DNA from: Phytopseudomonas daroniae
Lineage (GTDB): Bacteria > Pseudomonadota > Gammaproteobacteria > Pseudomonadales > Pseudomonadaceae
Length of the DNA stretch: 64,000 bases
Direction: 5' to 3'
NCBI RefSeq assembly: GCF_004327285.1
Contig: NZ_QJUI01000003.1
Span: 186,001 to 250,000, forward strand
The position numbers were made by a program, and so were the translations under genes. This document shows, in pieces, positions 35,029 through 62,467 of this stretch. The notes under the pieces were generated by a model that was given only the letters and a program-made list of their open reading frames with translations, was not told the DNA's origin and searched no databases. How positions within the stretch are numbered: position 1 is the first letter of the stretch; every line of letters starts with the position of its first letter.

Positions 35029-35297
35029 TTAGAACCTGTTCACGATCTTTCGAGCAATGACAGCAAAAAGGCGGGAGCAGCCGATCGGTGACCCGCGTTG
35101 AACCATGGATCACGGCCTCGGCCCCGGATTACGCCTGCGGCTAATCCAGGCTACGTTCTACAGCCCGTAGGATGGGTGAAACCCATCAATTTCCGATGGG
35201 TTTCACCCATCCTACGGGCTTACGCCACATTGCCGCCGATCTATAGGGATACGGGTTCCTGTTTGCCAAGTGCACAAAGATCGTGAACAGGCTCTTA
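35029..35297. mobile_element. MITE-like element flanked by TTA repeats, with nested hairpin
   Basis: The left end begins GAACCTGTTCACGATCTTT at 35032; the reverse complement of the right end begins GAGCCTGTTCACGATCTTT, a 19-base inverted repeat with one mismatch. TTA stands immediately outside both ends (35029-35031 and 35295-35297), a TNA-type target duplication. Inside is a perfect 26-base-pair hairpin listed separately. The stretch AAGGCGGGAGCAGCCGATCG is shared, with small changes, with the 62660 element. There is no coding capacity. Confidence 0.85.
35162..35220. repeat. Perfect 26-bp GTAGGATGGGTG hairpin
   Basis: Arms 35162-35187 and 35195-35220 are exact reverse complements (AGCCCGTAGGATGGGTGAAA continuing ACCCATC), with a seven-base loop. 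It is nested in the TTA-flanked element, and related GTAGG...CCTAC hairpins occur at 57616 and 62739. Confidence 0.9.
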
Positions 35298-58498: not shown

Positions 58499-59596
58499 TC
58501 ATCGTTCGATTTCGAGAACGGTCAGGCTTTCCAGGGTCAGGGCGCCGACGGCCAGGCCGTTGGCGGTCTGGAATTCGGTCAGTGCGTCAAGGGTACGCTT
58601 GCCTAGCAGGCCGTCGACGGTACCCGGGTTGAAACCGCGCTTGACCAGGCTCTGCTGCAGGCGGGTCACCAGGTTGTCGTCGATATCGTTGTCGCAGACG
58701 GTCTGGCGCGACACGATACGGGCGTTGCCCTCGAAGCGGGTGATCTGCAACTGGCGCTTCTCTTCCGGCACGATGATCTGGTTGGCTTCGACCGGCTTGA
58801 CCAGCTCGGTGGAGGCGACCTTGGTGTATTCCGGATCTATGATCACTTCCACTGCCTGGACCGGCTTGTCGACGATCCAGCGGGTGACGCTCTTGTACTC
58901 GGCCGGATCGGTTTCGACCCGCACGGTTTCCGGCGACACCAGTTTCTTGATCTTGACCACTTCCTGCTTGGCCGGCACCTGGCGTGCGCAGAAAGACATG
59001 ACGCCAGTACCGCTCGAGTAGCGGGTACCTGCTGCGCGGCACTGGTCGAGTACGGTCTTGGCTTCTTCGAGGGTGACGGTTTCCTGGGCATCCTCGTAGA
59101 CCGCCGGCACTACCACGTAGCGCTTGACCTCAGGGCGGATCATCACCTGCTCGGATACCACGCGGTAGGTCGGCGGCTCGATGCGGTAGGTCTTGGTGCC
59201 TTCGCGGGTGACCACCTGCTTGAAGCCCTTGTCGAGCTCGGCAGGGGTGACGGTGATCTTGTTGACCGAATCCTTGACCACGATGTCCTGGGTGCTCTGC
59301 ACCGGACGCGGCCTGACCTGGGCGTAGACCCAGCACTGGCCAGGCTGGATTTCGTATTCCTGGGGCTCCTGGGAACTCAGGGCGGCCACCGGCGCCTGAG
59401 CCTGCACGGGCTGGCCACTCGGCGCTGCGCGGGATACGCCCTGAGGCGCCGGCTGCGGTGTGGCTGGTGCGGTAGCGGCTTGCTGAGCGACTGGTGCCGG
59501 TTGTGCCGGTTTGTCTTCGTTATTGGTCGATGACGGCTGCATGGCGCAACCCGAAACCATGATCGCCAGTGATCCCAGAATGGTGTAATAACGCAC
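58499..59596 (-). CDS. Peptidoglycan-binding lipoprotein with Pro-x-Tyr repeats
   Basis: Predicted outer-membrane or periplasmic lipoprotein of 365 residues: lipobox VSGC with cysteine 17, a Pro/Ala/Gln-rich linker to about 80, a middle region with recurring P-x-(x)-Y units (PPTYRVVSEQV, PAVYEDAQETV, PAEYKSVTRWI, DPEYTKVASTE), and a C-terminal PG_binding_1 domain (LQQSLVKRGFNPGTVDGLLG). The function is unknown, probably envelope tethering. A mobile element sits 75 bases upstream of its start. Confidence 0.82.
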   Translation of the reverse strand: MRYYTILGSLAIMVSGCAMQPSSTNNEDKPAQPAPVAQQAATAPATPQPAPQGVSRAAPSGQPVQAQAPVAALSSQEPQEYEIQPGQCWVYAQVRPRPVQSTQDIVVKDSVNKITVTPAELDKGFKQVVTREGTKTYRIEPPTYRVVSEQVMIRPEVKRYVVVPAVYEDAQETVTLEEAKTVLDQCRAAGTRYSSGTGVMSFCARQVPAKQEVVKIKKLVSPETVRVETDPAEYKSVTRWIVDKPVQAVEVIIDPEYTKVASTELVKPVEANQIIVPEEKRQLQITRFEGNARIVSRQTVCDNDIDDNLVTRLQQSLVKRGFNPGTVDGLLGKRTLDALTEFQTANGLAVGALTLESLTVLEIER

Positions 59597-59671: not shown

Positions 59672-59941
59672 CTAGGGTCTGTTGACATTTCATGCACGGC
59701 CGCGCCGGAACCCGTTTTGCCGCGAGGCAAGGCACGAGCCGCGAAGTTTAGCTGGCTAAATGAGCCGGCGAGAAACGCAGCATCGCGGCAAAACGGGCCC
59801 GGCCCTACGGGTTGCGCGGGAAATCTCGCCATGCGTCGTTGGAGGACTTGAAAAGGGAACGCCATTCCCTGCGTCCTCCGCCTCGCTTGGCGAGATTTCT
59901 CGCAGCAACGCGGCTCGCGTTGAAACGTCAACAGACCCTAG
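59672..59941. mobile_element. CTAG-flanked inverted-repeat element with two composite hairpins
   Basis: The left end GGTCTGTTGACATTTCA (59676) and the reverse complement of the right end, GGTCTGTTGACGTTTCA, differ at one of 17 bases. CTAG stands outside both ends (59672-59675, 59938-59941). Inside are a perfect 15-base-pair stem (59711-59725 with 59783-59797) holding TTTAGC/GCTAAA, and a second stem AAATCTCGCCA / TGGCGAGATTT (59821-59831, 59888-59898) holding GGAGGAC/GTCCTCC. There is no coding capacity. Confidence 0.8.
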
Positions 59942-59983: not shown

Positions 59984-62467
59984 CTACATCCCGTCCAGCA
60001 ACTCCTCGCTACGATCCATCGTCACCTGGCGGATGGACAGGCGGATTTCCGCGGGTAGCACGCGCTTGGCGGCACCTTCGGCCAGTTCGGCGAATTCGGG
60101 GTGATGACTGAGTTTTCCGGCTTCGTCCTTGCGCAGCACGCCCTGGTCGAGCAGCGTCTGGATGAAGTGGCGGAACAGGCTCTTGTCGAAGAACTCCGGG
60201 GCATTCAAACCATGCAGGATCGACAGGCGCTGAGCCATGACCGTGCACAGGTCTTCCAGCTCTTCGGCGCTGATGCTGTTCTGCCCGGCGTTGAGCAACA
60301 GGGCGCTGGCCATGTAGAAACGCTGCAGGGTCTGGACGATGGCGCGTGATAGCAGGGTCAGCAGCACGAAGTGCCGCGAGCTGGGTGCCGGGCGCACGTA
60401 GAGGTCGTTCTCCACCTTGAGCAGGCCCTGTTCGACGAACGCCTCCAGCCACTGATCGACCACGCCTTCGAGTTCGTCCGCGGACCAGCGGATGTACAGC
60501 TCGGCCTGCAGATAGGGATACAGCGCATGAACGAAACGCAGGATCTGCTCGCGGCTCATTCGTCCGCTGTTCTGGAAGAAGCTCGCCAGCAGGCCGGGCA
60601 GGGCGAAGATGTGCAATACGTTGTTGCGGTAGTAGGTCATCAGGATGGCGTTCTGCTCATCCAGATAGAGAATGCGACCCAGGGCGTCCTTCTGCTCGGA
60701 GAGCAGTTGCATGCCGCGTACGTATTCAATCAGCGCCAGGCCATCGCCTTCCGGCAGGGTGGTGTGCGGTGAGTAGGGCACGCGGCGCAGCAGGCTCTGG
60801 TAAAGATCGAGGATGCGCGTCAGCGCACGTTCATCCAGGGCCAGCTTGCTGGTGGAGAGCAACGCCAGGGCCACCAGGTTGACCGGGTTGATCGCCGCCG
60901 CCTCGTTGAGGCGCTGAGCCACGCGTTCGCCAAGTCGATTGGTGGTTTCGTTGAGCCAGGTCGGGCGATAGTCCGGCCCCAGGTTCTGGTCGCGCCAGTC
61001 AGGCTGCTGCCCATCGAGAAAGCTATCGAGCTTGATCGGTTCGCCGAAGTTGACCCAGACATGGCCGAAACGCTGCTTGAGCGCGCCGATGACCTTGAAT
61101 ATATCGAAGATCGATTCCTTCTTCTTGCTCGCGCCGCGCAGCTCGCCCAGGTAGGTACGGCCCTCCAGCACGCGCTCGTAGCCGATGTACACCGGCACGA
61201 ACACCACCGGCAGGCGATGGCTCTGCAGGTAGCTGCGCAGGGTGATGGCGAGCATGCCGGTCTTGGGCCGCAGCATGCGACCCGTGCGCGAACGGCCGCC
61301 CTCTACGAAGTATTCCACCGGATAGCCCTTGCTGATCAGGGTACGCAGGTACTCGTTGAACACCGCGGTGTAGAGCGGGTTGCCCTTGAAGGTACGGCGC
61401 ATGAAGAAGGCGCCACCGCGACGTAGCAGGCCACCGATGATCGGCATGTTGAGGTTGATGCCGGCGGCGATGTGCGGTGGCGTCAGGCCGTTGCGAAACA
61501 GCAGGTAGGACAGCAGCAGGTAATCGATATGGCTGCGGTGGCAGGGTACGTAGATCACCTCGTGACCCTGGGCGATGTCCTGCACCCCTTCGATATGGTT
61601 GACCTTGATGCCGTCGTAGATCTTGTTCCAGAACCAGGACAGGATCAGCTCGAGAAAGCGAATCGCCGTGTAGGTGTAATCCGAGGCGATTTCGTTGCCG
61701 TAGCGAAGGGCCAGGGCCTCGGCCTTCTGCGCCGAGATGTTCTCGCGCTCGGCCTCTTCGGCGATGGCCTGGCGTACCTGCGGGCCATGCACCAGGCCTT
61801 TGACCAGGTTGCGTCGGTGCGACACGTCCGGGCCGATGACCGCGGCCTTCTGGTTGCGAAAGTGCACCCGCAGGATGCGGTGAACCATGCGCAGGGTGCG
61901 CTCCTGGCCCTTGTTCTGGGCGATCAGTTCGCGCAACTGGATAGGCGTGGAAAACTGCACACGGGTGGTGCGGCCCAGGATCAGAATGCTGACCAGACGG
62001 CGCAGGCGGCCGGTAACTGCCCAACTGTCGGCGAACAGCAGCTTCCAGGCGCTGGTTTCATGATCCGGCGATTGGCCCCAGAACACGCTGACCGGAATGA
62101 TCTGAGCCTCTTCCGCGCTGTGCTCGCCGAGGGCGCTGACCACCCGTTGCAAGGTCGGCGAAATGCCGCGTTTGTCCTGCCGGCCGAGCCAGTCGGGCTC
62201 CGGGGTCAGGTAGAAGAACGCCGCCGGCTCCATCAGGTCGCCCACTGCCACCGGCAACACCGGCCGTGGCAAGCCGGCCTTGGTGCACTCGCGGTCGAGC
62301 ACCGCCAGGTCGCTCACCGAAGGCTGCTGCAACACGTAGAACACCGGCTTGCTGCGGTCGAGCTTGAGGGTGAAGGCCGACTGGTTGATGGTTTCCGAGC
62401 GCACCCACAGGTACAGCAGGCGGCGCAGGGTACCGAATGCGAGACGGCGAAGCGGGGAGCGGGTCAT
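59984..62467 (-). CDS. plsB: Glycerol-3-phosphate 1-O-acyltransferase PlsB
   Basis: Inner-membrane enzyme that acylates sn-glycerol 3-phosphate, the first step of phospholipid synthesis. The 827 residues match PlsB length. Acyltransferase block I is [13 protein letters not shown], with the HX4D pair at H310 and D315; later blocks include [22 protein letters not shown] and [12 protein letters not shown]. The mobile element at 59672-59941 lies 42 bases past the stop. Confidence 0.96.

Follow-up and report, generated by a model that had tools for sequence, protein, structure and literature searches.

The DNA analysed here is a 64,000-nt stretch of the Phytopseudomonas daroniae genome (GCF_004327285.1, contig NZ_QJUI01000003.1, positions 186,001-250,000), which we call the window. 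At 59672-59941 it carries an intergenic element next to plsB (59984-62467, minus strand; NCBIfam PlsB). The neighbouring gene on the other side (58499-59596) lies on the same strand as plsB and encodes a peptidoglycan-binding domain behind a start that looks lipoprotein-like by eye. Counted from GGG, the body of the element is 264 bp long (59675-59938). It starts with GGGTCTGTTGAC and ends with the inverted copy of this sequence, matching at 17 of 18 positions, and on each side it is flanked by a TA that lies inside CTAG. The individual features are listed below.

59673-59674, no strand: left TA of the target (C59672-TA-element), seen in the sequence; TA is found on both sides in 25 of 37 own-genome copies
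59675-59692, plus strand: left terminal inverted repeat GGGTCTGTTGACATTTCA; the same 18 bp form the left end of an Acinetobacter IS5-family element
59698-59818, minus strand: hairpin unit A, inverted relative to unit C (stem 59711-59728 with 59780-59797), covariance model match with E 2.9e-10
59803-59811, no strand: small central hairpin CCCTACGGG between units A and C, from the sequence and the DNA fold
59796-59915, plus strand: hairpin unit C (stem 59816-59835 with 59884-59903), covariance model match with E 7.8e-25
59921-59938, minus strand: right terminal inverted repeat, in minus-strand reading GGGTCTGTTGACGTTTCA; the same 18 bp form the left end of the Azotobacter IS5-family element
59939-59940, no strand: right TA of the target (element-TA-G59941), seen in the sequence

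The original prediction had described a 262-base body beginning with GGTCTGTTGAC, with ends that match at 16 of 17 inverted positions and CTAG on both sides, and this body is indeed present (59676-59937). The two inner stems it had pointed out, each with a smaller palindrome, are real as well. Stem 1 pairs 18 bp at 94% and stem 2 pairs 20 bp at 90%, and each holds a smaller hairpin inside. The fold of the element is far beyond chance: as RNA, with its flanks, it gives z = -12.3, while the DNA fold gives z = -10.6 on the plus strand and -9.9 on the minus strand, with 0 of 200 shuffles folding as well in each case. The 264 bp contain no transposase gene, only mechanical ORFs that run over the edges. 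No second copy was found in the window, where the model gave one further weak match (35149-35224, E 0.11).

The search for further copies that had been proposed was productive. In the own genome, BLAST with the 270-bp stretch gave 40 scored places of at least 200 bp, and the covariance model gave 48 core matches. By sequence search, matches were obtained in 16 of 57 genomes including the own one, all in one genus of 22. Full-length relatives with 73-77% identity sit on plasmid records of Halomonas, P. aeruginosa and Azotobacter, and partial matches on a second Azotobacter plasmid and a Citrobacter plasmid. The phage collection gave no match to the element, and neither did the E. coli genomes when searched with the Citrobacter copy in distant mode. 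The copies sit close to genes; the 28 that could be classed on mechanical ORFs are co-directional (11), divergent (10) or convergent (7), with no clear preference.

Among the 37 own-genome copies with placed ends, 25 have TA on both sides and 12 have lost it on one or both; 13 of the 93 placed loci were left out of the set behind these counts as partial, duplicate or nested, and some ends were misplaced by automatic end-finding. Where the TA is kept, a Y precedes it on the left in 25 of 28 cases and an R follows it on the right in 29 of 31, so the predicted YTAR-type target holds. IS5 itself creates a 4-bp YTAR duplication. Here, the two flanking 4-mers are identical in 9 and different in 16 of the 25 copies that have TA at either end, which rejects a 4-bp duplication of CTAG and leaves TA, within a YTAR-type target, as the duplicated unit. 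The idea that CTAG might belong to the inverted repeat also had to be given up, because the G and C beside the TA are the element's own ends. Non-YTAR flanks, which would have spoken against the prediction, did not appear as such, but decay or another process has removed TA in the 12 copies mentioned above.

A conserved ortholog at the plsB site across species, the other outcome that would have contradicted the prediction, was not found: none of the other genomes among the 57 has the element next to plsB. One of them (G001, the nearest relative), the only one that matched both flanks, lacks the element there, as expected for a mobile sequence. Its site has diverged and thus documents absence only, and a clean empty site proving the TA duplication was not found. 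At six loci (L002, L003, L004, L009, L022 and L026) a mechanical ORF stops exactly at the left TA plus the first G of the element: when the element enters the TA of a stop codon, a TAG stop results. Another 40 regions taken from the own genome (L044-L083) contained 16 derivatives of 29-68 bp that hold little beyond the ends, and 9 of these have TA at both edges; the short elements also show a second end variant, GTTGCC. These derivatives may have moved on their own or may have arisen by deletion. If they moved, the interior is unneeded for movement.

The ends link the element to the IS5 family, as had been proposed. A 30-base end query matched the ends of annotated IS5 family transposase genes on plasmids of Azotobacter, Acinetobacter, Aeromonas and Polaromonas; the family assignment of the transposase is given by NCBIfam and Pfam, and ISAba31 is named among the plasmid relatives. 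Five such places were opened and span 817-857 bp between TA flanks. The Acinetobacter element (L186) carries GGGTCTGTTGACATTT at both ends, the Azotobacter element (L185) carries GGGTCTGTTGACGTTTC with one change at the other end, and the Aeromonas element (L187) carries GGGGCTGTTGACGTTT at both ends, while L188, with a broken frame, and L189 are more distant. The 18-bp end of the element matches the ends of open IS5-family elements of 855-857 bp on the Azotobacter and Acinetobacter plasmids, with 18 of 18 positions identical to the window element, and in two Pseudomonas genomes. The 855-bp relative in these two genomes has GGGTCTGTTGCCGTTT, which both ends show unchanged in G012 and which has one change in G030, and the GTTGCC variant is common to the short elements and this IS. 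IS and short element occur together on the Azotobacter plasmid pAcX50f, which carries L185, and in G012.

Other end types gave a mixed picture. The GGGCCTGTTAACAC type is also present on IS5-annotated elements of Enterobacter, P. aeruginosa and Variovorax plasmids, whose two ends agree at 14-16 of 18 positions. A GGGGGCGTTCTC-type query led to a single Marinobacter place, where the ends pair weakly (12 of 18) and enclose no annotated transposase, a weak link. A GTACTC-type query returned chance-looking matches only, and for the end types other than those matched no IS was identified. No close counterpart of the transposase was detected in the own draft genome, where the best hit reached 37% identity, and the element is at present only a candidate for mobility. 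This genome does hold an IS in CTAG with other ends, GGTTCTGTACGAAAAG (L124:1424-2333). Near a contig end, from position 684 of L063, the IS5-like end GGGCTTGTTGAG directly adjoins a short element; considered as a closer driver it was dismissed, the plasmid comparison giving rhizobial and other IS5 relatives only. An IS630 driver, suggested by the TA target, was likewise dropped: Pfam DDE_3, which we take to be the IS630-type family, had no match in the own genome, and the ends pointed to IS5.

Given these ends and this target, one could ask whether the element is simply a decayed IS5 element, as first considered. We regard this as highly improbable. By BLAST, the window body shares with the five IS5 elements only the ends (16-25 bp) and short chance-level pieces, and the near-constant length and the conservation of the interior across genera argue against decay. 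Of the original interpretation, the IS5 connection and the YTAR-type target were right, while the decayed IS and CTAG as part of the repeat were not.

Judged from its sequence, the interior is no leftover of an IS: one hairpin unit is present twice in inverted orientation, and this dimer occurs in many genera. It follows from the finding that a model built on the right half matches the left half as well, on the other strand, at 50 of 75 loci and in the window. The alignment of 33 elements, a hand-picked diverse set with ends set by hand, has 75 consensus pairs, of which 59 show two-sided changes. Among 127 half-units, in an alignment that includes model-training sequences and is fitted to the model, 91.7% of the cells pair compared to 58.4% when shuffled and 35-42% after sliding, and the covariation is 0.751 versus 0.163 when shuffled. 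The stem columns contain all four pair types, while a few tip columns are near-invariant (125, 122 and 122 of 127). The motifs of tip and centre are conserved, the centre hardly varying, and the tip holds one constant U-G pair (122 of 127). The one-unit covariance model matches 102 of 369 genomes and 82 of 272 genera across the class (E 0.01), and with E 1e-4 it matches 73 of 398 genomes and 42 of 212 genera across the phylum, own genome included in both; these searches used stricter filters and scored at most 9 matches per genome, and the model E-values are rough.

Independently of the model, the ends are self-complementary at 15 or more of 18 positions in 50 of 53 elements compared to 27 of 154 mismatched loci; the count used 53 of 58 loci, 5 being cut by contig ends, and the control is inflated by loci sharing an end type. 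The end sequences differ widely between lineages yet stay self-complementary, and both ends of single copies change together. That the two ends pair is sufficiently explained if both have to fit the same transposase. A few copies have an unusual left half. L097, L098 and L117 (all G003) retain hairpin C, but in the place of hairpin A they have a shorter hairpin that looks unrelated and pairs in a stem of its own; in L182 the tip of hairpin A seems, by eye, to be turned round relative to the other elements.

Three orthologous copies at one site (L086:729-991, L087:717-980 and L090:781-1044, from G016, G005 and G021), 94-96% identical, differ by 4 two-sided and 7 one-sided changes among 104 pairs. 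Thus, 4 of the 11 changed pairs are two-sided, all Watson-Crick, which argues for strong selection or for templated correction in situ. A gene that encodes an Orn/Arg decarboxylase domain, as tested in L086, lies immediately downstream of these copies, and here the element may have been co-opted as a leader.

What, then, maintains the pairing? RNA helices tolerate G-U but not A-C. In the elements we counted 37 G-U and 46 A-C, by a 60% Watson-Crick rule in place of an exclusion of 7 poorly aligned pairs, and 23 and 28 in the interior alone, whereas the corresponding counts for RNase P RNA of this class, obtained by the same procedure, were 89 and 14 (28 of 30 loci used, 2 being cut, of 35 matches); the Fisher test is descriptive only, since the sequences are related. 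The half-units have 168 G-U and 76 A-C, and without the constant U-G column, which contributes 122, the numbers are 46 and 76. Because G-U does not exceed A-C, there is no one-strand RNA signature, and the pairing seems to be kept on DNA, or on both strands equally, and not on one RNA. The search for a curated RNA family gave a single hit of 22 bits (E 0.11), far below the cut-off of 268, so that a known Rfam family was rejected. The constant U-G tip pair is not strand-symmetric and counts against pairing that is read on DNA. Folded DNA, transcripts of both strands or templated correction could each account for this.

We think it very probable that we are dealing with a MITE, a non-autonomous transposable element that IS5-family DDE transposases mobilise in trans. 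Such a transposase would bind both ends and then insert the body at a TA, which would be duplicated. For the pairing we see about even chances that it is kept because the folded DNA, as a cruciform or single-strand hairpin, is read or used; the element would then be a passenger conserved for its structure, with ends that changed along with its IS5 drivers. One may go further and speculate that the interior is a structure-read DNA signal: a factor widespread in these bacteria would recognise the folded form of its two large inverted hairpins, and the signal would have survived across many genera by joining one set of IS5-type ends after another; this more specific idea is tentative and we consider it rather unlikely. 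Template switching during replication or repair, which corrects imperfect palindromes, could create the stem covariation without any function, with only the ends and some tip motifs under selection. It fits the missing excess of G-U over A-C, the concerted change of both ends and the two-sided changes in the orthologous copies, which are fast for selection alone, and we grant it a limited chance, similar to that of the signal. Concerted ends are, however, also explained by the shared transposase, tips and centre hardly vary across many genera in which the stems show all four types of pair, and correction alone would not keep the unpaired asymmetries of the tips. Somewhat less probable still is that the pairing is selected in RNA. 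As the element is inverted and inserts either way, the transcripts of both strands would have to fold, for example for processing or for shielding neighbouring genes. The extreme RNA fold, the inverted symmetry and the position of the copies close to genes in any arrangement would suit this, but G-U is not favoured, unlike in RNase P RNA, and no Rfam family matches.

With 264 bp, 48 core matches, ends that match at 17 of 18 positions, a TA duplication in 25 of 37 copies, no transposase gene, and ends equal to those of autonomous Azotobacter and Acinetobacter IS5 elements (18 of 18), the element has the features of an IS5-family MITE, and its movement would be due to an IS5 transposase. Like the IS5-family IS (NCBIfam NF033580) it has 18-bp ends and a TA inside a YTAR-type target, but it has no transposase gene and its interior is unrelated. 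Correia, ERIC and similar elements are also flanked by TA, folded and intergenic; they differ in size and sequence. Integron attC sites, which have core sites and recombine as a folded strand, offer an analogy for DNA hairpins read by structure. The REPINs of Pseudomonas, in the part of their description used here (PMC3116915), are inverted pairs of palindromic units with predicted hairpins and compensatory changes. The element shares with them the compensatory changes and, as a general feature only, inverted hairpin-forming units; REPINs are tied to RAYT transposases, whereas the present element is several times their size, ends like an IS5 and is flanked by TA. The P. fluorescens intergenic repeats comprise R0, R2, R6, R26 and R200 (PMC2718517, in part); R200 (320 bp) and R26 (352 bp), compared by description only, are likewise intergenic, MITE-like and of similar size, and could be relatives. 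Bacterial MITEs that share only the terminal repeats with their IS have been reviewed (PMC10969869, in the portion considered), and the element resembles these short, folded, multicopy sequences with inverted ends, target duplication and no transposase. It differs from them, as described there, in an interior conserved over many genera, in saturated covariation and in being an inverted dimer of a hairpin unit. Our literature search, with most subscription journals outside its coverage, gave no paper recognisable as describing this family.

In summary, a MITE is commonly regarded as the decaying remnant of an IS within a single genome or genus. Here, a gene-less interior is found in 82 of 272 sampled genera of the class, with strong covariation, no G-U signature and ends that differ by lineage. 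The element thus lends itself to testing whether DNA secondary structure is under selection and how a passenger changes its driver transposase. Additionally, the covariance model allows many unannotated intergenic repeats to be recognised, some of them at contig ends of draft genomes. If the interior is indeed a structure-read DNA signal, it would represent a class of mobile DNA that is defined by a conserved DNA structure and not by genes or by end sequence.
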